From: a bacterium
Lineage (GTDB): Bacteria; Myxococcota_A; UBA9160; SZUA-336
Assembly: GCA_024226335.1 (NCBI GenBank)
Contig: JAAELY010000342.1
Coordinates: 1-34,093, forward strand
Length of the DNA: 34,093 nt
Direction of reading: 5' to 3'
The notes below the pieces were generated by a model that was given only the letters and a program-made list of their open reading frames with translations, was not told the origin of the DNA and searched no databases. Made by a program: the position numbers and the translations under genes. The first letter of the stretch is position 1. Each line of letters starts with the position of its first letter. Below, piece after piece: positions 2,542 to 28,515 of the stretch.

Positions 2542-3836
<1,295 letters not shown>

Positions 3837-3941: not shown

Positions 3942-6269
3942 TCAGTCTCCGAGCTGAATCGAGTCGAAGAGCGCGTCCAGATCTTCCTCCCCATCGGGAA
4001 TCTCGATCTTGGGCCCCGCAGCAGGCGCGGCCTGTACGGGCGGCGCGGATGCTGGCGCCGCAGGGGCTACCGGCGCTGGTGCGGGTGCTGCAGGTACGGG
4101 TGCGGGTGCGGGTGCTGCAGGTACGGGTGCTGGCGCGGGTGCTGCAGGTACGGGTTCCGGTGCTGCGGGTGCTGCAGGGATTGGAGCTGCGGTCGGCGCG
4201 GCCGATTGAGCGGGATCGGTTTTCCAATCCTCGTCCACGTCGGAAAGCAGTTCCCCCAGATCGAAGAGGCTCCCGGGACCCGCATCGTCGCTGACCTCGA
4301 GTGGAGAAGCGGCAGCTGCAACCGGAGCCTGGCGGGGAGCGACGGGTTCGGGCGCCGCAGCAGTCGGAGCCGGGATCTGCGTCTGAGTCCCGGTGGAATC
4401 GAGAATCGATCCCAGGTGGAAGCCTTCATTTGAGGTCGTCACCTCGGGTGGCGCAGGCGCCACAACAGGTGCTGCTACGGCCTGAGGCTGGACGGGCGCA
4501 GCCGTCGGAGCCGGAACAGGAGCCGCGACCGGAGCCATGTCTGGGATCGGTGTCGGAGCTGTAATTCTCGTGTCTGCAGCGTCTGCCTGCTTGCGCAGTT
4601 CAGCCTGCTGCTCGGGTGTGATCACGCCCGCGAGGCTCAGCGGAGTCTTGTCGTCTTCATCGTCTGGCAGCGAGAGTTCGAGCGCCGTCCCGCTTTCCGA
4701 GGTCAGCGGCTGCACGTCCTCAACCGGCATGTTCAACTCGATTTCGACTCCGAACGAAGGCGCGGTTTCGTCGTCAGAATCCTGCGAGAGCGGGTCCGCT
4801 TCCCCGCTGCCCATCACCGGGGAAACCGGATCAAAGGCCGACGCGACAGGAGGCGCGAGCTCCTCCTCGGTTGGCGGATCGGGGGGACTCAGTACGAGTT
4901 CTGGTTCGCTTTTGGGTTCGAGCCGGCTCTCGACCACGGATTCGAGTTCGAGTGCACCGGTTGAGCTATCGGATGCAGCCGGCATCGCGGGTGGAACGAA
5001 CTCGCGGTTCAGCGGCGGGAAGTCGTCGGCCACCAACTGCGTTGCAACCTGTGGGGCCGGCGAGGGGTTCGGGTCGGCGATCACTTCAAGCGCCGCAGCG
5101 GCTTCATCGAGCACGGCCGGATCGACCGGTGGCCGCACGGGCTCTGAGGACAATACGGGCTCGGGCGGTGCAGGAACGGGCTCGGGAGGTACCTCCGGTG
5201 TCATCGCGGGGAGAACAGGAATGAGTTCGTCTGCAACCTCGAGCGCGGGCACCGGCAGCGGAGGAACCGGCGCGGAGGCGACCTCTGGTGGCGCTGCAGG
5301 CGAAGCGGGAAACGAACTCGGGCTCGGAGCGGCCGGTTCGACCCAGGGCGCGGCACCACTCTCGGACTCCCCGATGCTCTGGATACCCGGAGCTTCCGCG
5401 ACCTCGCCGATGGCGAGATCCAGTTCCAGGCCACTGGGTTGTTCGCTGGCATCGGCGGGCGAAAGACCTAGCGCGTCTGCCGCCGCGGCGACGAGTGAGG
5501 CATCCGCGGGGTTCGCGCCTTCGAGCGAGGCGTCGAACAGAGTGTTGTCCGCGAGCGAGTTCATCACGCGCGGCACGCCTTCGGAGTATGCGTAGATCGC
5601 ATCGATCGCATCGGGCGTGAAGATCTCGAGCGAGCCGCCCACGTTCTTCAAGCGATGTTCGAGATACCGGGCGGATTCTTCTCGATCCATAGCCTTGAGT
5701 TCAATGCGAATATCGACGCGCTGGGCCAGCGGTGGATCCAGGCGCAGAATCTCGCGGAGTTCATCCAGGCCAAAGAGCACGAGCGAAACGAGCTTCTTGC
5801 CTTCGTGCAGGAGATTCAGCAGACCTCGGAACTCCTCCATCGCATTGCGATTTCGGAATAGCTGGGCCTCATCGACGAAGATCACCGGGTATTTTCCGGC
5901 GGTATTCACCTCAACCAGGCGGGCGTGTACCTGATCAACCTGCTCTGGGATCGTCGGCGCGAGCTGGACGATCCCGTACTGGCGAGCGACGTTGGGCAGA
6001 AACCAGCCCGAGGAGCAGCCTTCGTGGGGAATCGACAGGAAGCGAACCGCAACATCGCTGTCGGCGAGGTCGCGCAGTAGATAGTGCGCGAGTGTGGTCT
6101 TGCCGCGTCCCGGCCCGCCGTACACGACGGTCAGAGCCTTGCGCTGGTGGATCCCGCGCAGCACGCGCAAACGAGCCTGTCGTTGCGGCTCGCTTTCGTA
6201 GTAGAAACGACCGTCGAGATCGTTCTGGAACGGCTCAGCTTCGAGGTCGAAGAATTTCAGGTATTCCAT
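3942..6269 (-). CDS. ExeA/GspA-like AAA ATPase with a long Pro/Ala-rich tail
   Basis: 775 residues. Residues 1-265 are an ExeA/GspA-type AAA domain: an N-terminal MEYLKFFDLEAEPFQNDLDG, Walker A GGPGRGKT (51-58), Walker B VIFVDEAQ (129-136), then an arginine-containing sensor region (LAQRVDIRIELKAMD) and a C-terminal lid with SEGVPRVMNSLAD. In type II secretion, ExeA helps secretin assembly through peptidoglycan. This protein lacks a recognisable peptidoglycan-binding domain and membrane helix, and ends instead in about 500 residues rich in Pro, Ala, Glu and Ser, closing with an acidic patch (DGEEDLDALFDSIQLGD). It is the last gene of the operon, 33 bases after the large TPR gene, with a good ribosome-binding site (GAGGATTGC before ATG). 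A role in pilus or PilQ assembly is inference from context. Confidence 0.8.
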   Translation of the reverse strand: MEYLKFFDLEAEPFQNDLDGRFYYESEPQRQARLRVLRGIHQRKALTVVYGGPGRGKTTLAHYLLRDLADSDVAVRFLSIPHEGCSSGWFLPNVARQYGIVQLAPTIPEQVDQVHARLVEVNTAGKYPVIFVDEAQLFRNRNAMEEFRGLLNLLHEGKKLVSLVLFGLDELREILRLDPPLAQRVDIRIELKAMDREESARYLEHRLKNVGGSLEIFTPDAIDAIYAYSEGVPRVMNSLADNTLFDASLEGANPADASLVAAAADALGLSPADASEQPSGLELDLAIGEVAEAPGIQSIGESESGAAPWVEPAAPSPSSFPASPAAPPEVASAPVPPLPVPALEVADELIPVLPAMTPEVPPEPVPAPPEPVLSSEPVRPPVDPAVLDEAAAALEVIADPNPSPAPQVATQLVADDFPPLNREFVPPAMPAASDSSTGALELESVVESRLEPKSEPELVLSPPDPPTEEELAPPVASAFDPVSPVMGSGEADPLSQDSDDETAPSFGVEIELNMPVEDVQPLTSESGTALELSLPDDEDDKTPLSLAGVITPEQQAELRKQADAADTRITAPTPIPDMAPVAAPVPAPTAAPVQPQAVAAPVVAPAPPEVTTSNEGFHLGSILDSTGTQTQIPAPTAAAPEPVAPRQAPVAAAASPLEVSDDAGPGSLFDLGELLSDVDEDWKTDPAQSAAPTAAPIPAAPAAPEPVPAAPAPAPVPAAPAPAPVPAAPAPAPVAPAAPASAPPVQAAPAAGPKIEIPDGEEDLDALFDSIQLGD
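4084..4164 (-). repeat. Three 27-bp tandem repeats inside the ExeA-like gene
   Basis: Copies at 4084-4110, 4111-4137 and 4138-4164 all begin GGTGCTGCAGGTACGGGT on the plus strand and differ by a few bases at the end. They are in frame and encode 9-residue units of the type APAPVPAAP in the disordered tail. The multiple-of-three period lets copy number change without a frameshift. Confidence 0.85.
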
Positions 6270-6302: not shown

Positions 6303-9300
6303 CTACTGGAGTTCGGAAATCCGCGCCGTCACATCGCGGAAAGTCGGGTCGGCGGAAGCCACAGCCTGGAAGGCGGCGAGTGCCTGTTCGCGCTTGTTTG
6401 CGGCCAGGAGCACTTCTCCCAGGTCGTAGCGCAACGAGGTTCCAATCTCGTCTCCACTCGCGACCATGGTGAGAGCGGTCTGCAGATCGGTTTCAGCTTC
6501 GCCAAAACGGCCCAGTTCGAGCTTGCAGTGCGCCATGAGCGAGAGCGCGTTGATGCCCATGGTTCCGCTGCGCCGAACGATTTCGAGTTCGCGAATCGAG
6601 TCTTCGAGAAGTCCCATTTCCTTGTAGGCGATCGCCAGGTCGTAATGCGCACCGACCTCTTCTTCACCGACCTGTTCCTGGATGCCTTTCTTGAACGCTC
6701 TGAAGACCTCGTCGAATCCGATCTGTTCTTGACCGGAGGCTCCGGCGGGCGCTTCGAGTTCGGCTTCGAGTTCCTTCGCGAAATCAAACAGGTCTTCCTC
6801 GTTTGCATCGTCTCGAGCGGGCACCGGCACGGCTGCGGCGGGAGCGTCTGCGAGCATTGGCTCGGCTGAATCCACAACAATGATGGGATCGGCATCCACC
6901 GGCTCTAAGGTGCTCTCGAGTACGGCCTGTAGATCGACCTCCGGCTCGCTGCTTGCCACGGGTGCAGCAGCCGCGACCGGCGCGGGCGCCGGTTTGGAAA
7001 TCGGCACGGGCTCAGGCTCAGGAATCGGTTCGGGCTCGGCTTCCAACTCGGGCTCGAGAACTGCGTCTGCAGGCGAACCCTTGCCGAGCATTTCGGCAAA
7101 GCTGGCCTCGTCGGACTCCATTTCGACCGCGAGTTCCAGCTCCGATCCCGGCTGCCCGGGCGCACCCGTGTCTTCGACGACCGCGGCTTCCTCCAGTTCG
7201 CGTTCGATGGGCGGCATCGTGTCTTCTGCCGCGATCCTCGGCTCCTGTGTGAAGTGGATCTCCGGAATCGAAGCGGGGGTTGCCGTGGCGGGCCCGACGT
7301 CGACCGAGTCGGACGCTGGCTTCGCTTCGCTTCGGGCTGCCGGTTTGCTGTTCGCGGGCGGCGTTGCTGCGGACTCTCCATCGACGACTAGCGTCTCATT
7401 GCCAGCCTTCCGCGCCTCGATTTCGCCCAGACGGACCTGCGCCTGTGGGTGGTTCGGTACGATCTCGAGGATTGCGCGATAGGCCTGCTCTGCCTCATCG
7501 AGTCTGTTCGCCTCGAAATCGCTATCGGCCTTGCCGATCATATCTGCCAGGTCCGGCTGCTCTTTGAACGAGTCTGTGGAACTGCCGAACATCGCCGATT
7601 CACCCGGCCCGCCGTCAGAGGGAGTGACTTCATCGAGCGCCGCATCGATATCGAGTGACTCGCCTTCCAGCTCGACGTCGATGTCCACATCGATCTCGAC
7701 GTCGATATCGAGGTCGACCTCGAGTTCCGGCTCTGCGTCTGGCTTGACATCCGCCTGGGGCGTTTCAATGACCTTGCTCGGCTGGGAAAGACCTAGCATG
7801 AGCTCGTCGGGCGGATCGACGGACGCGTACGTCGAATCATCGTCGCCTCCATCGGCCAGGACGATCTCGACGTTGGGCAGGGAATCCATACCCGGCGGTT
7901 CGGGCCTGGGCTCGGGCCTGGCTTTCGCCTGTTTGGGCTCGGGCCTGGCTTTCGCCTGGCCAGGCTCGGGCCGAGCCTTCACCCTGGGGTTCGCGGTCGC
8001 GGGTGATGTCGGCTGCCGCTTCGACTTGGAGGGGGGTTGAGACGTACGAAGCGAAGGGGCTGTCGCTTTGCCCTGCGTCGCGGGAGCCGGAGGCTTCGCG
8101 GTGGTTCGGTTCGGAGAAGCGCCGGTCTTTGGCCCGCGAGCGGCCGGAACCGGGCGCGGAGTCATCGACACACCGACTTCTTCGAGTTGAGCGGCCAGGT
8201 CTTCGACACCGGGATCGTTAGGCTTCTCGAGCTGCGCCAACAGGATTCCCAGCTCCACGGAAGTGGGATTGGTCTCGGCCGCCTGCTTTGCGAGTCGCGC
8301 CGCGGTCGCCGGATCGCCGAACTCGAGCGCGACCTTGGCCTCGGCGATCAGATCATCGGCGGACGATAGATCCAGTCCAGGCGAATGATCGAGATCGGGA
8401 ACATCGAGCATGACCGGAGCCGATTGCGATCCCGGAGTGCGCGGCGTCAGCTCCTCGCCCGCAGAAAAATCCGCCTCCTCGCTCTTGCCCGGTTCGCTCT
8501 TGCCAAATTCGCTCTCTTCACCCAGATCGAGCGAGAGCTCACCCATCGTCTCCTCTGTGAGCAGGATGCTGGGCGAGGTGTAGGTATCATCCCCTGCAGT
8601 AAACGACTCGGCTACGACGAAGCGCTGCAGGATATCGCGCGCTTTGTCGTTGTCGCCGCGGCGCTTGAACATCTCGGCGATCTCGCGATAGGCGCGCTGC
8701 TTGCCCACCTCGTCACCAGCGGCGTTGTACGCCATGACGAGAGCTTCGAGAATCCCCTGTTCGTCCGGAAATCGATGCTGCGCGTCGTTGAGCAGGCGGA
8801 TCGCGTCCTCTGCTTCACCGAGCGATACTTTGGCCTGGGCGAGCAGCTCGAGAGCGTGGTAGTGATCAGGGAAGGCGTCGACGGCGTGCTCGGCGACACG
8901 CGCGAGCAGATCGTTTGCGGTCTGGCGCTGCACTTCCTCGAGCAGAGAGTCGAATTCCGCGCGCGCCTCGTCGACCAATTTTTCGCGCAGGAACAGATCG
9001 GCCAGATTGAGACGGTTGGAAACATTGGAGGGATCGAGCGAAGCGACCTTCTTCAACAGGTCCAGGGCTTCGCGCTTGAGTTCGCGTTCCTGGCACAGGC
9101 GGACACCTTCCTGGAACTCGCGCAAGGCGTCGCTATTGAGCCCCATGCGCTGGAAGTGCTCGCCGAGCTTGACGCGAGCTTCGAGGAAATCCTCGTCGAC
9201 GCGCAGGATCTGCTTGTAGATGGCGACGGCCTTGGCGTCGAAACCACCCTTCGAGAACTGCTCGGCCACCTGGCCGTAGGATTCGATAGCGGCCTGCTTG

Positions 9301-9467
9301 TCGCCCTTTTTCAGGTACAGGTCCCCGATCTTCAGACGGATGTTCGGATCCTGGGGATCCGCCTTCAGCAGCTTCAAGTATTCCTTGAGGGCTTTATCGT
9401 ACGCGCCTTTTTGGGCGTACTTCTGCGCTGCTTCGAGCGCCTTGCGCTTTTTTGGCGTAAACGCCAC
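6303..9467 (-). CDS. Large tetratricopeptide-repeat protein with acidic and Pro-rich linkers
   Basis: 1054 residues from GTG 9467, preceded by GAGGACGA. Residues about 1-300 are a string of TPRs (for example YDKALKEYLKLLKADPQDPN and AVAIYKQILRVDEDFLEARV). A low-complexity stretch follows (KARPEP repeats, then an Asp/Val/Ile run EVDLDIDVEIDVDIDVELEG), a short central TPR pair (LDEAEQAYRAILEIVPNHPQ), another Pro/Glu linker, and a C-terminal TPR block from about 890 (FDEVFRAFKKGIQEQVGEEE, YDLAIAYKEMGLLEDSIREL). The FKKG-QVGEE-YKEMGL block occurs in TPR proteins of other former deltaproteobacteria. There is no signal peptide or membrane helix, so it is probably a cytoplasmic scaffold. It sits between the LipM-like and ExeA-like genes. 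Binding partners cannot be read from sequence. Confidence 0.85.
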   Translation of the reverse strand: MAFTPKKRKALEAAQKYAQKGAYDKALKEYLKLLKADPQDPNIRLKIGDLYLKKGDKQAAIESYGQVAEQFSKGGFDAKAVAIYKQILRVDEDFLEARVKLGEHFQRMGLNSDALREFQEGVRLCQERELKREALDLLKKVASLDPSNVSNRLNLADLFLREKLVDEARAEFDSLLEEVQRQTANDLLARVAEHAVDAFPDHYHALELLAQAKVSLGEAEDAIRLLNDAQHRFPDEQGILEALVMAYNAAGDEVGKQRAYREIAEMFKRRGDNDKARDILQRFVVAESFTAGDDTYTSPSILLTEETMGELSLDLGEESEFGKSEPGKSEEADFSAGEELTPRTPGSQSAPVMLDVPDLDHSPGLDLSSADDLIAEAKVALEFGDPATAARLAKQAAETNPTSVELGILLAQLEKPNDPGVEDLAAQLEEVGVSMTPRPVPAARGPKTGASPNRTTAKPPAPATQGKATAPSLRTSQPPSKSKRQPTSPATANPRVKARPEPGQAKARPEPKQAKARPEPRPEPPGMDSLPNVEIVLADGGDDDSTYASVDPPDELMLGLSQPSKVIETPQADVKPDAEPELEVDLDIDVEIDVDIDVELEGESLDIDAALDEVTPSDGGPGESAMFGSSTDSFKEQPDLADMIGKADSDFEANRLDEAEQAYRAILEIVPNHPQAQVRLGEIEARKAGNETLVVDGESAATPPANSKPAARSEAKPASDSVDVGPATATPASIPEIHFTQEPRIAAEDTMPPIERELEEAAVVEDTGAPGQPGSELELAVEMESDEASFAEMLGKGSPADAVLEPELEAEPEPIPEPEPVPISKPAPAPVAAAAPVASSEPEVDLQAVLESTLEPVDADPIIVVDSAEPMLADAPAAAVPVPARDDANEEDLFDFAKELEAELEAPAGASGQEQIGFDEVFRAFKKGIQEQVGEEEVGAHYDLAIAYKEMGLLEDSIRELEIVRRSGTMGINALSLMAHCKLELGRFGEAETDLQTALTMVASGDEIGTSLRYDLGEVLLAANKREQALAAFQAVASADPTFRDVTARISELQ
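7671..7732 (-). repeat. Asp-rich degenerate repeat tract in the TPR gene
   Basis: The plus strand shows repeated TCGACGTCGAT/TCGATATCGA-type hexamers. They encode alternating acidic and aliphatic residues (EIDVDIDVELEG). The tract is low complexity and palindrome-rich, and is likely to vary in length between strains. Confidence 0.55.
7908..7988 (-). repeat. Three 27-bp tandem repeats inside the large TPR gene
   Basis: Units at 7908-7934, 7935-7961 and 7962-7988 share GGCTCGGGCC and then diverge, the third most. In frame they encode KARPEP followed by three variable residues, a basic 9-residue repeat in the linker between TPR blocks. The period equals that of the repeats in the downstream ATPase gene although the sequence differs. 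Confidence 0.8.
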
Positions 9468-9533: not shown

Positions 9534-10322
9534 CTACGGAAGACTATCGGCGGATCGAAGGAATGTTCTTAGGATAAGTGGCGGTGCGCATAGGTTCTTT
9601 TGGGCACGAAATTCGACGCGCTCCCTCGCCACAGCCGTCTCGCGCGCCGTGAGCGGCATCTCCGCCAGGTTCCCTCCGACTCGTTCCCTGAAGGCCGCGA
9701 TCAGCGACGCAGAGACGTGGGAAACATCTGCGCACGACACGGGCGCCTGGCCGGCTCGTGTCGTGCCCGTGATGGATTCGTACAGTTCCGAGTCGTCACT
9801 CAGGCGGATGGCACCGTGCTGGAGAAAACCGGAACCGATCCGGCGTTGCGCACTGCCGATCAACTTCTTTCCCTCGAGTTCGATCTCGAAACCTGTCGCT
9901 CCGGCAAAGCACAGGTCGAGTCGCTCGGCATCGGGTTCAGCTCGACTGGGCTGTGCAGAAAGCCCCGCTCGGCGCAATCCGTCGACCAGTACCCCGCGGA
10001 TCCACTCGTAGCTGCCGCGCAGATCTTCGGGTAGACCGGGCAGGCCGGACGGCGCGACGACCGCATAGGTCAAATCCCCTGCGTGCAGGACACTGCCTCC
10101 CCCGCTGACGCGCCGCACGGTTGCGACGCCGAGTTCGTCACAACGCCCGAGCCAATCGGGTGGGCTCTGGCGGTATCCGAGGCTGAGCGCAGGTAGCGAC
10201 CAGGTGTACAGACGCAGGCTGGGACCGGACTCTGGAGCGCAGAGCAGGAGAGCCTCGTCGACCGCCATGTTCCAGCTTGCGGAACCGGGACCGTCGACCA
10301 ACAGGCGCCATGACTGCGTCAC
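9534..10322 (-). CDS. LipM-like octanoyltransferase / lipoate-protein ligase A family protein
   Basis: 262 residues of the BPL_LplA_LipB fold. Visible motifs are NMAVDEALL (18-26), [20 protein letters not shown] (70-89), LDLCFAG with Cys138, and [11 protein letters not shown] (151-161) followed by FLQHGAI. The Arg-Arg-x-Ser-Gly-Gly-Gly motif and the GKK lysine bind the acyl group and attack site in the family. A Cys at 138 in a CF context just before the GKK motif is the nucleophile position of LipM octanoyltransferases and is not needed in ATP-dependent ligases. I therefore favour transfer of octanoate from acyl carrier protein to lipoyl domains, with lipoate ligase as the alternative. The GTG start overlaps the aroQ stop by four bases (GTGA), so the two are translationally coupled. 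Confidence 0.85.
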
Positions 10323-10750
10323 TGCAGGCGTTCGATCAACGCACCGAGGGCGAGTTCATAGCCCTTCGCACCCAGTCCCGTGATCTGTGCCACAGCGACG
10401 GCCGCCACGCAGGAGTGGTGCCGAAACTTCTCGCGTGTGTGAATATTCGAAAGATGCACTTCAATGACCGGTAGCGAACAACCCGCGAGCGCATCTCGCA
10501 GAGACACACTCGTATGTGTCAGGCCACCGGGATTGATGATCACGCCCTGGTGCGTCTTGCGAACGGCCTGGATGCGATCAATCAGCTCACCTTCGTGGTT
10601 CGACTGGAAAGTGTCGACCGTAACGCCCTGCTCTGCTCCGAGCTTGACCAGAAGGTGATCGATCTCGGCCAGAGTGGTCGAGCCGTAGATCTCGGGCTCG
10701 CGCTCACCGAGCAGATTCAGATTAGGGCCGTGGAGAACCAGGATCTTCAT
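10319..10750 (-). CDS. aroQ: Type II 3-dehydroquinate dehydratase
   Basis: 143 residues, full length for the type II (AroQ) family. It converts 3-dehydroquinate to 3-dehydroshikimate in the cytoplasm, shikimate step three. The N-terminal [18 protein letters not shown] contains the active-site Arg17 and Tyr22. [17 protein letters not shown] and [17 protein letters not shown] are the substrate-binding Asn/His/Arg segments. The gene starts 12 bases after the roadblock gene and overlaps the LipM-like gene by four bases. With aroK and aroB in the same operon it supplies three shikimate steps. Confidence 0.97.
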
Positions 10751-10762
10751 GGGATCCGGGTA

Positions 10763-11128
10763 TTACAGCGTCTCCCTGAGATCGTGCAACACCATGCGCG
10801 TGAGATAGCGCATCTTGCCCAGAATCCCCTCGGGAGTCAGGACGATCAGCAGGAAGAACTCTCCGTCGATCGGGCGGAGCAGGATCTGGTGCTTCTCAGT
10901 GGCCAGAATCATCTCCTGCAGGGCGTTGGGCGCGCCCTCGTAGACCGACGAGGTCGCCTTGCGGACCTGTTCGAGCATTGGCTGTAGCTCGACCGCGAGC
11001 GCCGCGAGATCGACCTGATCCGTCTGACCGTACTCGTCGATCGGAATGCCGTCACCGGCCATGACCGCGCCCGCCAGCGCGCCTTCGGTCTGGTCGATGA
11101 GCTGTGCCAGGATCTCGCGGAACGTCAT
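10763..11128 (-). CDS. Roadblock/LC7 domain protein (MglB-like family)
   Basis: 121 residues, essentially one roadblock/LC7 domain. A first helix (FREILAQLIDQTEGALAG) is followed by a strand pair (AVMAGDGIPIDEYG), a long helix (DLAALAVELQPMLEQVRKAT), then strands (QEMILATEKHQILLRPIDGE, FFLLIVLTPEG) and a C-terminal helix. Family members dimerise and act on small Ras-like GTPases; MglB is the GTPase-activating partner of MglA in myxobacterial polarity. The start at 11128 is chosen because it overlaps the upstream stop in an ATGA, and residues before it in the open frame look like out-of-frame read of the neighbouring gene. No GTPase gene is in the window. Its position in a pilus operon hints at motility control, which is inference. 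Confidence 0.8.
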   Translation of the reverse strand: MTFREILAQLIDQTEGALAGAVMAGDGIPIDEYGQTDQVDLAALAVELQPMLEQVRKATSSVYEGAPNALQEMILATEKHQILLRPIDGEFFLLIVLTPEGILGKMRYLTRMVLHDLRETL

Positions 11129-11607
11129 GCGATTGCCTCTCTTTGGCTGCGGCGTTGCGCCGCGGCCAGCAAGCGTTCGAGCTTCAATATCGTACGCGCG
11201 CGGCGGTCTTCCAGCGGGCTGCCCAGAGAATCGCGCACCGCCCGTGCGCGCTCGTTGTCCGGATCCTTTTCGAGTACGACGTTGGCGACCGCGCGCGCCT
11301 TTTCGGGGTGCCCCTGGTCCGCGAGCAGCTGGGCCATGGTCGGAGTCGCGAGCGGCTCGGGCAACTGGAAGCCGGCCTTGATTTCCATTCGCTCGAGGAT
11401 GCAATCGCGCAAGGCGATCAAACGCTCATTCACGGGTTCAGAAGCGACATCGTCGAGCAGGGTACCGACGACCAGCATCAACGTGTTGGGATCCAGCGCA
11501 GCGGAAACGGCCCGCTCCAGACAGACCACGGCCTCCTCGATTTCGCCCAGGGCCCAATGTCCCCGCGCGATCTCGATGCGCAGCTGCGTCGGATCCTTCT
11601 TGCTCAT
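11125..11607 (-). CDS. TPR-like protein of unknown function
   Basis: 160 residues, alpha-helical. Two TPR-like pairs are visible: QLRIEIARGHWALGEIEEAV (N-terminal) and MAQLLADQGHPEKARAVANV with VLEKDPDNERARAVRDSLGS. The C-terminus is basic and Gln/Arg-rich. There is no signal peptide, so it should be cytoplasmic. It overlaps aroB upstream and the roadblock gene downstream by four bases each (both ATGA), and is therefore expected to be made in step with the roadblock protein. The pair may form a complex. I do not recognise a named family. Confidence 0.7.
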   Translation of the reverse strand: MSKKDPTQLRIEIARGHWALGEIEEAVVCLERAVSAALDPNTLMLVVGTLLDDVASEPVNERLIALRDCILERMEIKAGFQLPEPLATPTMAQLLADQGHPEKARAVANVVLEKDPDNERARAVRDSLGSPLEDRRARTILKLERLLAAAQRRSQREAIA

Positions 11608-12674
11608 TCTGCTCCCGCCAGGATCTCTTCAGGACTGAGCCGAACCACCTCGGCGCGCCCGATCTCGCGAAGCGCGACGAAGCCCACCTTCTGGCTCCGA
11701 ACCTTCTTATCGACAGCAATCGCCTGAAGGTAAGCGCTCTTCTGCTCGCTCCAGTCGGGCGCTGTCGTGCGCAAACCAGCTCGATCGAGCAATGAGATCA
11801 AACGCTCAGCGGTTCCCTTTGGCGCCAGTCCGAGACGCTCCGAGAGTTCCGCGGCGAACGCCATGCCCATAGCAACCGCCTCCCCGTGCCGCACTCCGCG
11901 GAAACCCGCGACACTCTCGATCGCGTGACCCAGTGTGTGGCCGAAGTTCAGCAGGGCGCGCAGCCCCCCCTCACGCTCATCCAGGCTCACGACTTCCGCC
12001 TTGATCGCCACCGAGCGCGCGATCGTCTCGCTGATGATCTCGGTGTCGAGTTCGAGAGCCGCCTGCACATTCTCTTCCAACCACGAGAAAAACCCCTCGT
12101 CCCAGAGGGCGCCGTGTTTGATCACCTCCGCCATTCCCGAACGACGGTCACGCGCCGGGAGCGAAGCCAGGACATCGGGATCGATCGCGACGAGATGCGG
12201 CTGGTAGAAGGTGCCGATCAGGTTCTTGCCTCGCGGGTGGTTGACGGCCGTCTTGCCACCGACGCTCGCGTCGACGTGCGCGAGCAAGGTCGTCGGCACC
12301 TGAATCAACGGAGTGCCCCGCATATACGTCGAGGCCACGAAGCCGGCCAGGTCGCAAACCGCTCCGCCCCCGAGTCCAATGATCAGAGTCTGACGATCGG
12401 CACCCAGGTCGGCGAGTTCCCCGTGCAGACGGGAAGCGGTTCGCATGGTCTTGGCGCGTTCGCCATCGGGAACAGAGAGTCGGTGCAGGTCGAGACCCAG
12501 ACTGCGCAGCCCACCTTCGAGGGCGTCGAAGTACAGCCCGCCAACGCGAGGCGTGGTCACTACGACGATGCGATCCACATCCTCGCTGAGCAGTTCAGCG
12601 GCGTTCCCCAGACAGCCAGAACGGATTACGACCGGATAGCTGCGATCGTTGAGCATGACGGTAACGGTGCTCAT
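11604..12674 (-). CDS. aroB: 3-dehydroquinate synthase
   Basis: 356 residues, the normal AroB length. It turns DAHP into 3-dehydroquinate with NAD and a divalent metal. NAD-binding GGGAVCDLAGFVASTYMRG (102-120) and substrate-binding VDASVGGKTAVNHPRGKNLI (134-153) are intact. The metal ligands fit Glu183 (MAEVIKHG), His246 (FGHTLGHAIE) and His263 (VRHGEAVAMGM). It overlaps aroK by four bases. The pilQ-aroK-aroB arrangement is conserved widely in bacteria with type IV pili. Confidence 0.98.
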   Translation of the reverse strand: MSTVTVMLNDRSYPVVIRSGCLGNAAELLSEDVDRIVVVTTPRVGGLYFDALEGGLRSLGLDLHRLSVPDGERAKTMRTASRLHGELADLGADRQTLIIGLGGGAVCDLAGFVASTYMRGTPLIQVPTTLLAHVDASVGGKTAVNHPRGKNLIGTFYQPHLVAIDPDVLASLPARDRRSGMAEVIKHGALWDEGFFSWLEENVQAALELDTEIISETIARSVAIKAEVVSLDEREGGLRALLNFGHTLGHAIESVAGFRGVRHGEAVAMGMAFAAELSERLGLAPKGTAERLISLLDRAGLRTTAPDWSEQKSAYLQAIAVDKKVRSQKVGFVALREIGRAEVVRLSPEEILAGAE

Positions 12675-13250: not shown

Positions 13251-16200
13251 CTACAGGTCGGAGTCCGAGGCGTGGATCACGCGAGGCGTGACGAAGACCA
13301 GCAGCTCGCGCCGCTCGTCCTGGATGCTGAAGCTCCGGAAGGCAGCCCCTAGCAGCGGAATATCGCCGAGAAACGGAACCTTGGTCTGGCCGCGGCCGTT
13401 GTCGACCACGTAGATCCCACCCAGGACCATCGTCTCGCCATCTCGGACGATCGCCTCGGTGTTGGTCTCGTTCTTTTCGATACCGACGATCGTACCACCG
13501 TCGCCCGACAGAGACGGCGCGTTTCGCGAGACCTTGATCTTCATGATGATCGAGCGATTGGCCGTGATGTGCGGCGTCACGCGCAACTGGAGCACGGCAT
13601 CGATGAACGAGATAGTGGTCTTGTCCGAGGTCGACTCGACGAACTTGATGGCGACACCCTGCTTGATCGTCGCTTCCTTGTTGTCGAGCGTCACCACTCG
13701 CGGCGACGAAATCACCTTGCCCTTGGCATTCCGCTCTGCGGCTCTCAGCTGCAGATCGAGCTGCAGGTGATCCCGAGCCGTCAGCACACCCAGGGTCAAT
13801 AGACCCGTCGCTGCGGCCACGGGATTGTCCGAAAGGAAGTGGTTCTGCTGTGCGGTCTGACCCGGGAGCGTGCCGCCCGTCACACCGGTCGGCTGTAGGC
13901 CGCTCGGTGCGTCGTAGGCCGAACCCCAGGTTGCTCCGAGACCGCGCGAGAAGTTCAGGCTCGCCTCGACGATCTTGGTCTCGATCATGACCTGCGGCGT
14001 CTGCGTGTCCAGCGCTTTCACCAGGGCCGTCGCCTCGTGAATGACCGAGGGGATGTCCTTGATGATGAGCGTGTTCGTGCGCTTGTCGACGTTGACCGAA
14101 CCTCGCGAAGAGAGCAGGCGCTTGACCAGCTTGCCCACGTTCTTGGCCTTCGCGTAGTTGACCGGCTGTAGCTTCACGACCAGGTCTTCGAGCTTCTCGC
14201 GAGCGCGGCGCTCCTGGAGTCGAGCCTGGCGCTCGAGCTTCAGGGTCTCCACAGGTGCGATGCGCAGGATGTTTCCGATGCGCACGAAGCCCAGGCCCTT
14301 GGTCAGAAGGATGACATCGAGTGCCTGGTCCCAGGGCACATCCACAAGGCGGATCGTCACCCGGCCAGAAACCTCTTCACCCGCAATCACGTTGAGGTCG
14401 GAGACCTCGGCGATCAGACGCAGGATGTTCGCGATGTCGGCGTCTTTGAAGTCCAGGGAGATGCGACGGCCTTCGTAGCCCTTCTCCTCGTCGAAACCAC
14501 CCTCTTCCAGGATGTCGATCGCGGCGGGGTTCGCCGGACCGTCCAGGAAGGGATCCAGTTCCATAGCCTGTGTCTTCTGGATTGGCGGTGTGGGCATCGC
14601 GGGAGCGACCGGGGCCGAACTCGGCATCGCCGCCGCAGGAACCGCAGATGCGGTGAGCGGCATCGCGGGATCTGCCGCGTTCTGCTGCTCGTCGGGCATC
14701 GCCGGAGGCATGCTCGCGCTCTCGTCGCGTTCCATTTCGATGTAGAGCTGTCCGTCTTCCCAATCGATCGTCGCCGACTCATTGGCAGATCGGTGCAGCA
14801 CGACGCGCACCTCGTCATTCGAAATGTCCGGAGTCTTGAAGACTGAGAACATCTTGACCGGTCCGCCGAATTCCGTGGTATCGACGCGGCGCTCGTTCTC
14901 CTGCTGGATCACAGCGCCGGGAAGCATGACGATGAGCGTGGCCGCATCCGGCTCGACGACCTTCGGCGTCCCTTCCGTGTTCATGCTGACCACCACGCGG
15001 TCGAGTCCGGGTAGCGACTCGAAGTGCACACTGGTGATTTCCTGCGGGCCTGAGGATTCGTCAACAGCCGGCGAATCGTCGACCATTGCGGCCCCGTCCG
15101 GCATCTCGACGACGGGCTCCAAGGTCTGTTTGGGAGCTGGAGTCGTCTCCGACCCGCTTGCCGCAGCCACCAGCTCTTCGACAGGCTCGGCAACTTCTTC
15201 GACTTCAGCCACGGGCTCGACAACCGGTTCGCGGGTCTGTTCGGCTTCCGCCTCTTCCACAACCGGCTCGTCGCTCGGCTGCATCTGCTCGCCGATTTCC
15301 TGGGAGGGCGCGGCGGGAAGCTCTGCAGCAGCAGGCGCCGGAACCTCCGCATCGAGCGTCACCATCATGCCGTCCGCGACGGGTGTGACTTCGTGGCCGT
15401 TCAACTTGCCGCGCAGGTCGAGAACGACTCGAACCTTGCCGGGATGCTCGCCCACACGAACGCGTGCGACAGCGCCGGACTCAAAGCTCTGGCGATCGGG
15501 CCATACACCACTCTCCGCTCCCCAGAAGTCGATCACGAGGCGATCGGGATCGTCGAGGGTGAAAGAGTCGACCTTTTCGAAGGGGCCGTCGGCGCTGATC
15601 TCCAGGCCGGATTCGGCAATCATGACCTTAAGGAGCTTGCTGGTCTCGGACTCGCCCATCGCAGCGGGAGCAGCCGGAACGATCTCGTTCTCCTTGACGC
15701 CCGGACGCACGACCTCGGGAGCCACGACATCGGGCTCATTGGTCTCGGCCGGTTCGACGACCTCTGGCGTTGTGGCGAGAACCGGAGCCGGTGCTGCGGG
15801 AAGCTCGTCGGCAAGTGCTGCTTCCGGAGCCGCAGGAACGACCTTGGGCTCGACCTTTGCGACGCTCGTGTCGGGCCCGCTTCCGGTTTTGAACTCAACG
15901 ACGATCTCGTCACCCGCCGGTATGACTTCGTACTCCGACGCGTGGGTCAGGCCGATGCTGACACGCGCCATACTGTGTCCCAGCTGCGCGTCTCCGAAGG
16001 TTCCCAGTGTAACGTCGTTGACCAGCCCGTTGTTCACGTTGATCGGAGCGTCAACCCCGTCAAAGCTCATGTTCGGGAGTTCAATGATCAGCCTGGGCGG
16101 ATCTTCGCGCATGAACGCCGTGTAGATCGCATCGCCAGCACCGCGAAGCACGATTCGAGTCACGCCTTCGTCCTGCCGGACATCGACTGCCGTTATCGTG

Positions 16201-16307
16201 GCTGCTTCGCGAGCAGACAGCTCCGCCTGAGTCAGGAATAAGACGATTCCCAGACCCAGGGCAAAACACACCGCACGCCCAGAGAAGGTGATACCCATCC
16301 GCCTCAT
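13251..16307 (-). CDS. pilQ: Type IV pilus secretin PilQ
   Basis: 1018 residues, longer than many PilQ proteins because of three AMIN-type domains and Pro/Glu/Ala linkers. Order: a signal peptide (about 1-33), AMIN 1 (about 36-141), AMIN 2 (about 222-322), AMIN 3 (about 423-526), an STN/N0 domain (614-690, RRISLDFKDADIANILRLIA), an N1/NolW-type domain (709-770, VNVDKRTNTLIIKD) and the secretin barrel (about 855-1012) with VPFLGDIPLLGAAFR and ELLVFVTPRVI. AMIN domains bind peptidoglycan and place the pore. The oligomer is the outer-membrane gate for the pilus. It overlaps pilP by four bases (ATGA). A second ATG at residue 4 is possible. Confidence 0.97.
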   Translation of the reverse strand: MRRMGITFSGRAVCFALGLGIVLFLTQAELSAREAATITAVDVRQDEGVTRIVLRGAGDAIYTAFMREDPPRLIIELPNMSFDGVDAPINVNNGLVNDVTLGTFGDAQLGHSMARVSIGLTHASEYEVIPAGDEIVVEFKTGSGPDTSVAKVEPKVVPAAPEAALADELPAAPAPVLATTPEVVEPAETNEPDVVAPEVVRPGVKENEIVPAAPAAMGESETSKLLKVMIAESGLEISADGPFEKVDSFTLDDPDRLVIDFWGAESGVWPDRQSFESGAVARVRVGEHPGKVRVVLDLRGKLNGHEVTPVADGMMVTLDAEVPAPAAAELPAAPSQEIGEQMQPSDEPVVEEAEAEQTREPVVEPVAEVEEVAEPVEELVAAASGSETTPAPKQTLEPVVEMPDGAAMVDDSPAVDESSGPQEITSVHFESLPGLDRVVVSMNTEGTPKVVEPDAATLIVMLPGAVIQQENERRVDTTEFGGPVKMFSVFKTPDISNDEVRVVLHRSANESATIDWEDGQLYIEMERDESASMPPAMPDEQQNAADPAMPLTASAVPAAAMPSSAPVAPAMPTPPIQKTQAMELDPFLDGPANPAAIDILEEGGFDEEKGYEGRRISLDFKDADIANILRLIAEVSDLNVIAGEEVSGRVTIRLVDVPWDQALDVILLTKGLGFVRIGNILRIAPVETLKLERQARLQERRAREKLEDLVVKLQPVNYAKAKNVGKLVKRLLSSRGSVNVDKRTNTLIIKDIPSVIHEATALVKALDTQTPQVMIETKIVEASLNFSRGLGATWGSAYDAPSGLQPTGVTGGTLPGQTAQQNHFLSDNPVAAATGLLTLGVLTARDHLQLDLQLRAAERNAKGKVISSPRVVTLDNKEATIKQGVAIKFVESTSDKTTISFIDAVLQLRVTPHITANRSIIMKIKVSRNAPSLSGDGGTIVGIEKNETNTEAIVRDGETMVLGGIYVVDNGRGQTKVPFLGDIPLLGAAFRSFSIQDERRELLVFVTPRVIHASDSDL

Positions 16308-16801: not shown

Positions 16802-17419
16802 CTACTCTGCTCCCGCCGACTTCGTGTCTTTGTCGTTGAAATAGAACGTCGCTGCGACGCCCTTGACCTTGAGCTTGGGGCCGTCGAGACCATCGTTGAC
16901 GACGTTGATCTCGAGATTGCCGAGATTCACGATGCGCGAGAGATTTGCGAGGCGATCGAAGAAGATGCCTACGTCGTGATAGCTACCGAGGAACTCGAGC
17001 CGGATCTGCTGCTCGGAATAGAAGCCGCGATTGACCTGCTTGCCGCGCTTGAATGAGCGGATCTCCAGTCCCGACTTCTTGCCCAGGGTGGTGATGTCGG
17101 TAAGCAATTGAGGCAGTTCGCTCGAATTCGGCAGCTTCTGCAGTGAAGCCTGGAGCTGCGCTTTGAGTTCCTTCTGCTTGCGCTTGAAGGTCTCGAGGTT
17201 CGAGGCTACTGCCTTGGCCGACTGGATGTTCTGCTCCAGCTTGGTCAGCTTCTTCTCCACACCGTGAAGAACGGTCCGCTGCCCACCAAAGAGTGTGACC
17301 CAATAGATACCGACCATCAGCACGGCCACCAAAGCCAGCGCGCCGTAGCGCGCGGGAGCCGGCAGACGCCCGAACTGCTCCAGCATCTGTTGTGCATCGA
17401 AATTGTCGCCAATCGCCAC
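16802..17419 (-). CDS. pilO: Pilus alignment protein PilO
   Basis: 205 residues. A cytoplasmic N-terminus (1-22), one membrane helix (about 24-44), a periplasmic coiled coil (about 50-98, many Lys, Gln and Leu), then a ferredoxin-like domain (LPQLLTDITTLGKKSGLEIR, VGIFFDRLANLSRIVNLGNL). This is the standard PilO layout. PilO pairs with PilN to form the periplasmic alignment subcomplex. It begins 12 bases after pilN and abuts pilP. Confidence 0.94.
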   Translation of the reverse strand: MAIGDNFDAQQMLEQFGRLPAPARYGALALVAVLMVGIYWVTLFGGQRTVLHGVEKKLTKLEQNIQSAKAVASNLETFKRKQKELKAQLQASLQKLPNSSELPQLLTDITTLGKKSGLEIRSFKRGKQVNRGFYSEQQIRLEFLGSYHDVGIFFDRLANLSRIVNLGNLEINVVNDGLDGPKLKVKGVAATFYFNDKDTKSAGAE

Positions 17420-17431
17420 GAGGTGCTCCTA

Positions 17432-18037
17432 CTACTTCCGCTGCCGTCCGCGTCGGCCTTTTCTCTTCTTCTTCGCAGAGGCCGCAGCGGTTGGCTTTAG
17501 ATAGGGATAGTTCGCTTTGAGCGTAAACCGGTTGAGCTTGAGGCCTTCGGTCTCAGTGACCGAGGTCTCCTGCAGCTGAACGCCTGAAATCATGTTCGAG
17601 GTCTCGAGCCGCGAAGCGAAGTCGGCGACGATTTCCGGATCCAAACTCAGGCCGCTCAGATTGAGCTTGCCTTTCTTCGCCGTCAGCTTTCTCAACCAGA
17701 CGCGGCTGGGAATGCTCTTGGCGATGTCGTCCATGATTCGCACGGGTCCAGAACGCGCCTTCTCGATCTGTGTGATCACATCGAGTTTGCGCTCGATCTC
17801 TTCCTGTTCCACCTGGAAGCGCTTTACTTCCTTGCGGGTCTCCTCGAGCGCCTTCAGTTCTTTCTTCTTGACCACGATCGCAGCTCTTTGACTGCTAATC
17901 TGTGACTTGATGGAGATGTGCATCCCCAGCGCGATGACGACTCCGCAGGTCGCAGCGACACCGAGCAGTACACCCTGCTTGCGAAGGCCGGCCTTTTTTC
18001 GGGCCTCACGAACAGGTAGCAGGTTGATGCGAATCAC
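17432..18037 (-). CDS. pilN: Pilus alignment protein PilN
   Basis: 201 residues. The extreme N-terminus MIRINLLPVRE is the conserved INLLP peptide that docks into the groove of PilM. A membrane helix (about 21-41), coiled coil (about 45-90) and a small alpha-beta domain (about 95-180) follow. The C-terminal tail is strongly basic (KKKRKGRRGRQRK), which is unusual for a periplasmic end and may contact cell wall or lipid; that is a guess. It overlaps pilM by four bases. Confidence 0.95.
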   Translation of the reverse strand: MIRINLLPVREARKKAGLRKQGVLLGVAATCGVVIALGMHISIKSQISSQRAAIVVKKKELKALEETRKEVKRFQVEQEEIERKLDVITQIEKARSGPVRIMDDIAKSIPSRVWLRKLTAKKGKLNLSGLSLDPEIVADFASRLETSNMISGVQLQETSVTETEGLKLNRFTLKANYPYLKPTAAASAKKKRKGRRGRQRK

Positions 18038-19092
18038 TTGTCATCTCCTCGGCGAAGGGCAAGCCCGACGGCCACCGAGAGCCCAGGGGCCAACTCTCGA
18101 AGCACTTCTTCATCTCCCGCCCTTGGCGCGATGTCGATCTGATTGAACGGATCTGCGATCTCGACGGGCAGTTCGATCTTTTCCTGAAAGAGCCTGTCCA
18201 GCAACGGAACGCGAGCGGCGCCTCCGCAGAGCACAAGCTTCTGAAGTGGCGCACTGGATGCTGTGGCGCGGTAGAAATCCAGAGAGCGCTGGATCTCCCC
18301 TACGAGGGTCTCGGAGACGTCACGCATGGCCTCTTCGACTTCTTGCGGAATGACTTCCTTGCTCACCTCACCGGGACGGCCTCCCACCTTGATGCGCTCG
18401 GCCTCTTCGAAACTGATCCCGAGAGCCTTCTGGATCTCTTCGGTGTATTGGTTACCACCGGTCGTTATGTCGCGGTTGAAGACTGGAATCCCGCCCTGCA
18501 TCACGTTCATATTGATGACAGAAGCACCAATATCGACCAGAGCGACAGCACCCGCGTCGTCGTAGTTCTCCAGGTACATATTGCCGACAGCGAAGCCATC
18601 AACATCGAGTACCGCCAGATTCAGGCCGCATTCGGTAATCGCACTCACGTAGTCGTGAATCAGGTCCTTTTTCGCGGCGACCAGCAGAACATCCATCTGG
18701 CCATCGAGACCGTTGTCGTCCAGGACCTGGTGGTCGATGTTCACTTCGTTGATATCGAATGGGATGTACTGCTCAGCTTCCCACTTGATCGTTTCCTCGA
18801 GTTCTTCAGAACTCTGCACGGGCAGCGAAATGCGCTTCACGATCACGGAGTGTCCGGAGACCGACGTCGCCACGTCCTTGGTCTTGAATCCGCCACTCGC
18901 GCAGACTTCACCAATCGCCTCGGAGATGGCGGGTGCGTTCATGAAGGAGCCTTGAACGATGGCTTCGGAAGACAGTTCGGCAATGCCGAAGCCTTTGAGC
19001 CGATATCCACCATTCGCCGTTTCCAGCTCCACCGCCTTGACGGAACTCGAACCAATGTCGAGACCGATGATCGATTTGGAACGAAAGAACAT
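18034..19092 (-). CDS. pilM: Actin-like pilus assembly protein PilM
   Basis: 352 residues, the usual size. It has the actin/FtsA-type nucleotide fold: the phosphate-1 loop IIGLDIGSSSVKAVEL (8-23), phosphate-2 VALVDIGASVINMNV, and an adenosine motif near LVLCGGAARVPLL. PilM is cytoplasmic and binds the N-terminus of PilN, linking the alignment complex to the motors. It starts nine bases after the HTH regulator stop with AGGA upstream. It is the first structural gene of the pilMNOPQ block. Confidence 0.97.
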   Translation of the reverse strand: MFFRSKSIIGLDIGSSSVKAVELETANGGYRLKGFGIAELSSEAIVQGSFMNAPAISEAIGEVCASGGFKTKDVATSVSGHSVIVKRISLPVQSSEELEETIKWEAEQYIPFDINEVNIDHQVLDDNGLDGQMDVLLVAAKKDLIHDYVSAITECGLNLAVLDVDGFAVGNMYLENYDDAGAVALVDIGASVINMNVMQGGIPVFNRDITTGGNQYTEEIQKALGISFEEAERIKVGGRPGEVSKEVIPQEVEEAMRDVSETLVGEIQRSLDFYRATASSAPLQKLVLCGGAARVPLLDRLFQEKIELPVEIADPFNQIDIAPRAGDEEVLRELAPGLSVAVGLALRRGDDK

Positions 19093-27048: not shown

Positions 27049-27654
27049 CTAGAATACGCTCAGGCCATTCATCGGTTCGTCGCACGGACCGACCTGGCCG
27101 GTCATGGGCAGACCGTCCCCGGCGTTGAGGACTTCCGAGCAACCCAGGGGTCCAGAACTCATGGCCGCACCCGAGTTGTCGGGTCGCTTCACACCCCAGA
27201 GATTCAGCACACCGTCGCCATCGAGATCCGATTCAGCGGCGGCAAAGTACTGTGCACCCGTGAGCGGAACAGTTCCGTTCGTCGAAACTGCATAGTTGAA
27301 GTAGACCTCCCCCTCCGGCTCCCAGCCGATGATGCAATAGCCGGGAGAGCCACTCGAGGGGGGGAAAGAACATGCGGCACCGAAGGTGGTCTTGCTCTGC
27401 CCCGGCGGGCTACCCGCTGAGAGCGGCTGAGCCGACCAGGAGAGATACACACCCACTTCGGCGAAGTACCCGGCCTCGGCCTTGCTGATGCCCGCCAGGT
27501 TGAGGCGGCCTTCGGCAGCTTTCGTTCGCAGCTGCACGCGGATGAAATTCGGAATCGCCAGCGCCGCCAGAATTCCGATAATTGCAACCACGATCATCAG
27601 TTCGATCAGCGTGAAGCCGGAGGCGCGGCGGTTGCGCGTGCCCGTAGCGAACAT
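27049..27654 (-). CDS. Type IVa major-pilin-like protein, second paralogue
   Basis: 201 residues. The leader is 13 residues ending in Gly13, with mature Phe14 and Glu18 at position +5 ([20 protein letters not shown]). The globular domain has four Cys (95, 107, 172, 191), all matched in the upstream paralogue, implying two disulfides. [10 protein letters not shown] loop (143-151) resembles EF-hand/dockerin-type calcium loops. The end has GQVGPC. The ribosome-binding site AGGAG (27660-27664) is close to ideal. It is separated from the first pilin by two hairpins and no recognised promoter, so it is probably expressed at a lower level by read-through. Either a minor or alternative pilin, or the main one; sequence cannot decide. 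Confidence 0.93.
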
Positions 27655-27689
27655 GGGATCTCCTAGAGTCGTGCGGACGTGAGAAGTCC

Positions 27690-27713
27690 CGGCGGGACCC
27701 GTGGGCCCCGCCG
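27690..27713 (-). promoter_or_regulatory. GC-rich stem-loop between the two pilin genes
   Basis: CGGCGGG and CCCGCCG form a perfect 7-bp stem around a 10-base loop that can pair further (CCC/GGG). There is no T-run, so partial termination or mRNA protection is more likely than full termination. Confidence 0.5.
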
Positions 27714-27730
27714 AGACGGGTAATCCGTTC

Positions 27731-27757
27731 TTCTAAGGAACGAAAGGCTTCCTAGAA
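27731..27757 (-). promoter_or_regulatory. Stem-loop spanning the stop codon of the first pilin
   Basis: TTCTAGGAA and TTCCTTAGAA pair with one bulged T around an 8-base loop. The stop TAG (27754-27752) lies in the stem. Together with the next hairpin it could stabilise the first pilin message and reduce read-through into the second. Confidence 0.5.
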
Positions 27758-28339
27758 GATCTGGCGACCCATGCTCACGTTATTGCACGGTCCGACCTGG
27801 CCATTGATGGCCGAACCATCGGCGACGTTCAGGACGCTGCTGCAGCCCATCGAGCCGGCGGTGATATCTAACGTACCTGCCAGATCCGGACGCGAGATGC
27901 CCCAGATATTGACGTTTCCATCACCATCGATATCGGAAGCAGCGTCAGCAAAGAACTGGTTGCCGCTCGTGTTGGTATCGACTGCGTACTGGTAGAACAC
28001 ATCACCTTCCGGCTCCCAGCCGATGAAGCAGAAGCCCGGTGCGCTGCTTGCGGGCGGAATACTGCAGGCACTGGCGAAAGCAGACTTGACCTGACCCGGT
28101 GCCGAAGACGGCGTCGCGCTCCACGAGAAGTAGGTTCCCACCTCGGCGAAGAACGACTCCTGCGCGGTACGGATGGCCGCGAGGTTGATCTTGCCCTCAC
28201 TCGCCTTGGATCGGAGCTGGAACTTGATGAAGTTCGGGATGGCGATTGCTGCGAGAATACCGATGATCGCGACGACGATCATCAACTCGATGAGGGTGAA
28301 GCCCTCGCGCTTCTTCAGGTTCTTGAGAATCGAATGCAT
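27752..28339 (-). CDS. pilA: Type IVa major pilin PilA
   Basis: 195 residues from ATG 28339, chosen because AAGGAGA lies four to ten bases upstream (28344-28350) and because it gives a normal 13-residue leader. Processing is after Gly13, mature protein starts at Phe14 with Glu18 at +5 ([20 protein letters not shown]). Four cysteines (92, 104, 166, 185) probably form two disulfides, and DIDGDGNVN (136-144) is a calcium-loop-like motif. It follows pilR and has its own sigma-54 promoter and structured leader, so it is the best candidate for the major pilus subunit. It is closely related to the downstream paralogue over the whole length (shared GWEPEG, WGV/I-RPD, GQVGPC). Confidence 0.95.
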
Positions 28340-28343
28340 TGGG

Positions 28344-28350
28344 TCTCCTT
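28344..28350 (-). promoter_or_regulatory. Strong ribosome-binding site of pilA
   Basis: AAGGAGA followed by CCCA and then ATG 28339. This match decides the start against the longer open frame that reaches 28504. Confidence 0.85.
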
Positions 28351-28370
28351 GATGACTCTGACTACGACCA

Positions 28371-28390
28371 GGGGCTCTTCTGAAGACCCC
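28371..28390 (-). promoter_or_regulatory. Second stem-loop in the pilA leader
   Basis: GGGG-TCTT-CAG-AAGA-(G)-CCCC folds as an 8-bp stem with one bulged base and a 3-base loop, about 20 bases before the ribosome-binding site. A stem here could lengthen mRNA life or tune translation. Confidence 0.5.
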
Positions 28391-28392
28391 GT

Positions 28393-28408
28393 GCCGTAAG
28401 AATACGGC
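28393..28408 (-). promoter_or_regulatory. Stem-loop near the 5' end of the pilA mRNA
   Basis: GCCGTA-TTCT-TACGGC is a perfect 6-bp stem with a 4-base loop, starting about eight bases after the predicted transcription start. Such 5' stems protect abundant messages from decay. That role here is inference. Confidence 0.5.
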
Positions 28409-28426
28409 CGGCCTCCGCTGAGCTAG

Positions 28427-28442
28427 AGCAAGCACCGTGCCG
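28427..28442 (-). promoter_or_regulatory. Sigma-54 (RpoN) promoter of pilA
   Basis: The minus strand reads CGGCACG-GTGC-TTGCT. Against the sigma-54 consensus TGGCACG-N4-TTGCW only the first base differs. The invariant GG (-24) and GC (-12) are exactly ten bases apart. Transcription should start near 28416, giving a leader of about 77 bases. The neighbouring pilR encodes a sigma-54 activator, which supports this strongly. Confidence 0.88.
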
Positions 28443-28515
28443 GAACGGCACTGCGCATCCGGGAAGCGGCAGGAGCCGCCGTGGAAGCCCGAAGAATCTG
28501 GCAATCGTGCTCATC

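Follow-up and report, generated by a model that had tools for sequence, protein, structure and literature searches.

A tailed AAA+ ATPase encoded directly behind sgmX in an uncultured class of Myxococcota ends in a predicted helix resembling that of MglB

Introduction

Type IV pili (T4P) of Myxococcus xanthus are activated by SgmX, a protein that is bound by MglA-GTP and recruits PilB (PMC7519303, PMC7668184). The helix at the C-terminus of MglB (Ct-helix) occupies an allosteric pocket of MglA; it drives nucleotide exchange, and polarity depends on it. Within this helix, Asp150-152, Asp154 and Phe157 contact MglA (Lys181 and Lys185, with Leu64 and Ile67 close by), and the acidic helix of RomR, likewise preceded by a long unstructured stretch, can replace it (PMC6785124). 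The gene behind sgmX (MXAN_5766), MXAN_5765, is annotated as a 'putative Sec system ATPase' (PMC3983030). Inactivation of mxan_5765 leaves T4P motility unaffected (PMC7668184), as does deletion of MXAN_5763-5765 (PMC11580455), and the gene has been noted in M. xanthus and given no function, since its deletion left pilus motility intact.

Here we analyze an ATPase gene in the same position behind sgmX, located in a 34,093-nucleotide stretch of DNA (hereafter, the window) from an uncultured class of Myxococcota. A preliminary description of this gene had presented its product as an ExeA-like ATPase, encoded next to an extended PilQ operon, in which the part that delivers a secretin had been replaced by a disordered tail, and which might serve as a cytoplasmic assembly or positioning factor.

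Results

The ATPase gene (3942..6269) is a real open reading frame of 775 codons on the reverse strand, as are all the operon genes and gene segments given below, and it is the last gene of an operon with the order pilM-N-O-Q-aroB-TPR-mglC-aroQ-lplA-sgmX-ATPase. The pilO, pilN and pilM genes (16802..19092) were assigned by a TIGR01175 match in the case of pilM (E 3.1e-77) and by position and conservation in the case of pilN and pilO, while the pilQ secretin gene (13251..16307) matches TIGR02515 (E 1.1e-124). These are followed by aroB, for 3-dehydroquinate synthase (11604..12674), and by the gene of a small TPR protein (11125..11607). The next gene (10763..11125) codes for a 120-aa Roadblock/LC7 protein of MglC type, which matches M. 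xanthus MglC (7ct3) with E 1.5e-12 over residues 2-117 and does not match MglB. Behind it come aroQ, for 3-dehydroquinate dehydratase (10319..10750), a lipoate-protein-ligase-like gene (lplA, 9534..10322) found in many copies of the operon, and the gene of a 1054-aa SgmX-type TPR protein (6303..9467), residues 7-279 of which match NF052243 with E 6e-64, under the full-length cut-off. The extended PilQ operon had thus been recognized correctly in the preliminary description, which had missed two of its members, sgmX and mglC.

Across 53 loci, most of them from one uncultured class of Myxococcota and a few from outside it, sgmX is followed by the ATPase gene after a gap of 9-85 bp. Within the class, 27 genomes besides this one, spread over nine families, share the operon order, which is also seen in further 'Deltaproteobacteria/Myxococcota' metagenome-assembled genomes; elsewhere in the phylum, it recurs, with the ATPase directly behind sgmX, in genomes G173 and G041, which represent two other families and lie in two other classes. 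Homologues consistently located away from pil genes, which would have spoken against a role beside the pilus operon, were accordingly not what the 53 loci revealed. Of the class genomes, five that are at least 91% complete (G017, G019, G021, G025 and G032) lack both sgmX and the ATPase, genus g17 retains sgmX in the same operon and lacks the ATPase, and SgmX with no ATPase behind it is seen in 34 loci sampled from the rest of the phylum. The occurrence of SgmX without the ATPase, together with the joint absence of both genes from five genomes, marks the ATPase as accessory to the SgmX operon and not as a core part of the pilus.

Like MXAN_5765, the ATPase gene lies directly downstream of sgmX, has an ATPase annotation and co-occurs with SgmX (PMC3983030, PMC11580455), so that the two can be regarded as counterparts by position. 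The M. xanthus gene is followed by tamB/tamA-type genes, whereas no gene downstream of the ATPase is conserved in the present class and no linkage to TamAB was seen. Beside the ATPase no transposase or TniQ gene was found, its neighbors being sgmX and the pil genes. A tyrosine integrase gene (2542-3836 of the window), the 3' end of which runs into a tRNA-Gly(CCC) gene (3761-3836), marks the edge of an integrated element directly behind the operon. Further along the window (27049-28504), two adjoining pilin-like genes share the same N-terminal pilin helix and possibly represent a duplicated major pilin.

The first 270 residues of the protein (5460..6269) form an AAA+ core, with a Pfam AAA_22 match at residues 42-175 (E 2.7e-16), a Walker A motif GGPGRGKT at residues 51-58 (6096..6119) and a Walker B motif VIFVDEAQ at residues 129-136 (5862..5885). 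TIGR03015 matches residues 3-253 with 139 bits, below its cut-off of 324.5, and AlphaFold2 (AF2), run on a 28-sequence alignment, assigns a pLDDT of about 95 to residues 1-270 and mostly below 60 thereafter. VchTnsC is the best solved relative by sequence (E 9.4e-11), and Foldseek returns ORC/Cdc6, TnsC and MuB as fold matches of the core (E in the 1e-8 range, TM to target 0.5-0.7), an AAA+ clade that makes the formation of a ring or filament plausible by analogy. A search of the genome contigs with the single full-length ATPase as query gave no match; a paralogue in the same genome (G000:C30) is 31% identical to the ATPase across residues 3-265. In three ATPases of family f7 (L050, L054 and L062, from genomes G033, G022 and G024), the Walker A lysine is changed to T (GxxGSGTT/S) and the C-terminal motif described below is retained; judged by their sequences, these are likely pseudo-ATPases. 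Nucleotide hydrolysis is hence probably not universal in the family, the tip of the tail being nearly so, which favors scaffolding over catalysis.

The preliminary description was right in that the ATPase core of the ExeA/GspA family is kept. The protein shares with ExeA/GspA the AAA_22 core and its overall length, but it has neither a membrane helix nor a PG_binding_1 domain, and no gene for a GspB partner is present in the operon. It shares with the XrtA/PEP-CTERM-associated ATPases of TIGR03015 the core family, a match over the whole core and the lack of a wall domain, but it scores well under their cut-off and belongs to another operon. With TnsC and MuB it has in common the AAA+ initiator/TnsC-type fold, but it is not accompanied by transposase or DNA partner genes and its tail is disordered. 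The notion that a delivery part was replaced implies descent from a full-length GspA and does not hold up, given that TIGR03015-type ATPases and paralogues of about 300 aa in the same genomes also lack such a domain. In genome G227, nine identical-scoring copies of an ExeA-like ATPase of about 400 aa were seen, which are probably part of a mobile element.

The remainder of the protein (residues 271-775; 3945..5459) is a disordered tail rich in Pro, Ala and acidic residues, according to its composition, Pfam and AlphaFold2. The tail comprises about 500 residues (503 when measured from a common core boundary, 510 in the stretch searched against Pfam), 67% of which are P/A/E/D/S/G and 2% aromatic, in line with the low complexity reported earlier; the proportion of two thirds also holds for this protein, the tail of which is the longest seen (29-417 residues in homologues). 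No Pfam domain matches the 510-residue tail at E<=1, while the control search with paralogue G000:C30 recovers PG_binding_1 (E 3.9e-17), and no membrane helix is apparent in the tail, either in the AlphaFold2 model or by hydropathy, since the highest 19-residue value is 1.19. Hence, the reported absence of membrane and peptidoglycan-binding domains is borne out, and no hidden domain of either kind turned up. Two short helices are predicted in the tail, at residues 552-565 (4575..4616) and 764-772; the former was dropped as a shared feature on the grounds that it is private to the 775-aa ATPase and not conserved in other tails. A short FDLGEL motif at residues 669-674 (4248..4265) has similar FD[LP]xxL counterparts in four other tails of the window's own family (f1), for a total of five of eight f1 ATPases.

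The tails cannot be aligned overall, but their last residues can. Expectation-maximization without any prior on position, applied to the full tails of 49 non-redundant members, retrieved the motif E-[LIV]-[DE]-D-L-F-x-[ED]-[LI]-[IV]-[ED]. In 47 of the 49 tails it lies no more than 15 residues from the C-terminus, against an expectation of 8.1 under random placement, and the earlier observation of an acidic C-terminus thereby extends across homologues. Its information content is 19.5 bits, as compared to 8.4-9.0 in ten shuffled sets, which ignore relatedness; the remaining tail, serving as an internal control, has no comparable motif. In the window the motif reads EEDLDALFDSI (residues 761-771; 3957..3989), a candidate docking motif that overlaps the predicted helix 764-772, the sole conserved helix of the tail. 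The motif is absent from paralogues not linked to sgmX, and we found no description of it in such an ATPase in the literature. A profile of the last 25 ATPase residues, which is too short for the purpose, had no match in the PDB.

An mglB-mglA pair, found through a search for small GTPases, is present on contig C54 of the same genome. The encoded proteins match M. xanthus MglA with E 1.5e-99 and, to the last residue, M. xanthus MglB with E 2.7e-56; the pocket residues of MglA that receive the helix (K181, L64, I67-type) are kept in the class, and MglB ends in a [DE][DE][DE]IDNLF-like sequence in nearly all complete class copies. The C-terminal ends of the two proteins read SDDDIDNLFSD in MglB and GEEDLDALFDSIQLGD in the ATPase. 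A position-specific scoring matrix (PSSM) built from 52 ATPase motifs assigns 22.7 bits to DDDIDNLF of M. xanthus MglB, above all 974 decoys (99.9th percentile 15.2), these being C-termini of unrelated ORFs from sampled loci. The same matrix gives 12.8 bits to the C-terminus of E. coli CheZ and 10.3 to the N-terminus of FliM, values reached by 3 and 5 of the 974 decoys, respectively, the peptides scored for these ends being QVDDLLDSL and EIDALL. Like the MglB Ct-helix and the acidic helix of RomR, the tip of the ATPase is a predicted acidic amphipathic helix that ends a flexible stretch and follows a [DE]3-[ILV]-D-x-L-F pattern; unlike them, it sits on an AAA+ core and not on a Roadblock or receiver domain. 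Moreover, the ATPase motif runs one hydrophobic turn past the end of MglB, so that its partner may differ from that of MglB.

A related motif, [FY]ESFDD[LIV][IVM]AE, is present in one or two copies behind the last TPR of SgmX in 42 of the 45 ATPase-bearing operons outside f1, and hence behind the MglA-binding TPRs of this protein. SgmX of several ATPase-less families carries a single-copy C-terminal version (EFDRAFDDLL), the motif region is lost in family f1 (0/8), and the shortened SgmX of genus g17 (L208 and L209, from genomes G031 and G027), which lacks the ATPase, ends right after the first FDD motif (EEQYESFDDLMAEFKDD). A supposed hopping of the motif between SgmX and the ATPase, based on its count in the last 30 residues of SgmX (0/53 with the ATPase against 12/34 without, the latter counted by eye; Fisher p 3e-6), was withdrawn after the region behind the TPRs was searched, which showed that the zero had arisen because the count covered the far end of the protein alone. 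Most ATPase-accompanied SgmX proteins outside f1 (e.g. L045, L046, L051 and L055) possess a conserved basic end, [KR]KK[IV]S[FY][VLF]-COOH, which is complementary in charge to the acidic end of the ATPase; it is missing from f1 and from the SgmX proteins that stand without the ATPase in other lineages.

Discussion

The anatomy of the ATPase and the makeup of its operon are firm. As the single mechanism with the best support, though with somewhat less than even confidence, we tentatively propose that it acts in the cytoplasm as an AAA+ accessory to the SgmX-MglA polarity and T4P module and that its tail docks on MglA. The AAA+ core, of a ring- or filament-forming kind, would provide an oligomer, and each subunit would carry a disordered arm whose tip is an acidic amphipathic helix like the Ct-helix of MglB. 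This arm would serve as a tether, its tip docking on MglA, most likely at the alpha5/beta2-beta3 pocket used by MglB. Docking may keep the ATPase at the pole of MglA and SgmX, or the tip may compete for the pocket with MglB (and RomR) and alter MglA nucleotide exchange, or both. Binding to MglA, oligomerization and an effect on pili or polarity are steps that we infer, and docking on MglA is supported by the adjacency to sgmX and the joint absence of both genes, the C-terminal motif and its match to MglB, the presence of MglA and MglB in the genome, the pocket residues and MglB helix kept in the class and known as contacts in M. xanthus, the FDD motifs of SgmX and the persistence of the motif in f7. 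It is weakened by the dispensability for T4P motility of mxan_5765, a counterpart by position, the shortness of the motif, the good scores of CheZ and FliM, the extra turn and the SgmX of g17 without an ATPase. The lack of a motility phenotype suggests a modulatory or conditional role (e.g. in reversal, MglA cycling or pole switching) and not that of an essential pilus-assembly factor.

The resemblance among the motifs of MglB, SgmX and the ATPase suggests, at the level of sequence, that they share one receptor. Helices of this short, acidic and amphipathic kind are common, however, and the TPRs of SgmX, receiver domains and MglC must be weighed as receptors too. If the tip bound the TPR superhelix of SgmX itself, the ATPase would be a remodeller or clamp of SgmX without any contact with MglA. 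The invariable adjacency to sgmX is in agreement with this, the FDD motifs behind the TPRs could occupy the same groove intramolecularly, and the release of M. xanthus SgmX from MglA upon C-terminal truncation (PMC7668184) fits autoinhibition by its C-terminal part; nevertheless, the closest match found is MglB, the helix of which binds MglA, and we consider an SgmX-bound tip rather unlikely. The match to MglB also bears on the proposal that the tip binds a receiver domain in the manner of CheZ or FliM, its target being a CheY-like domain within the polarity system, of the kind found in FrzS or RomR. FrzS does bind SgmX through its pseudo-receiver (PMC11580455), and the CheZ and FliM peptides share the pattern, but they score far below MglB and the operon has no receiver gene, which leaves such a ligand with a small probability.

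Given that mglC lies in the same operon and that a positively charged cleft of MglC binds the C-terminal helix of RomR (PMC12719032), the tip might instead insert into the cleft of the MglC dimer; the interaction with RomR, however, requires tryptophan W394, and the ATPase motif contains no tryptophan, making this an improbable arrangement. As for a GspA-like ATPase dedicated to assembling the secretin or the pilus and acting on PilQ through some other partner, a GspA-type core and the presence of pilQ in the operon are both in keeping with it, but the protein lacks a membrane or wall domain, up to seven genes separate pilQ from the ATPase while sgmX is always its direct neighbor, and T4P motility does not require the positional counterpart, so that we regard such a role as highly improbable. 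The preliminary view of a cytoplasmic assembly or positioning factor consequently stands as to the predicted location, but nothing links the ATPase to secretin assembly, the partner indicated by the locus being SgmX, which regulates polarity and the formation of T4P.

A more specific form of docking on MglA, which we put forward as possible yet doubtful, would make the ATPase a third type of MglA regulator, that is, an oligomer displaying, on its long disordered arms, several Ct-helices like that of MglB, which would capture MglA and stimulate or block nucleotide exchange beside SgmX, with a pseudo-ATPase doing the same in one family. One short helix would then be used in common by MglB, SgmX and the ATPase within a single polarity network. 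For the gene behind sgmX, the conserved operon and the MglB-like tip provide a specific candidate partner. If docking on MglA is right, the allosteric pocket of MglA would be a hub for short acidic helices of several proteins, and an AAA+ oligomer on flexible arms would regulate a bacterial polarity switch.
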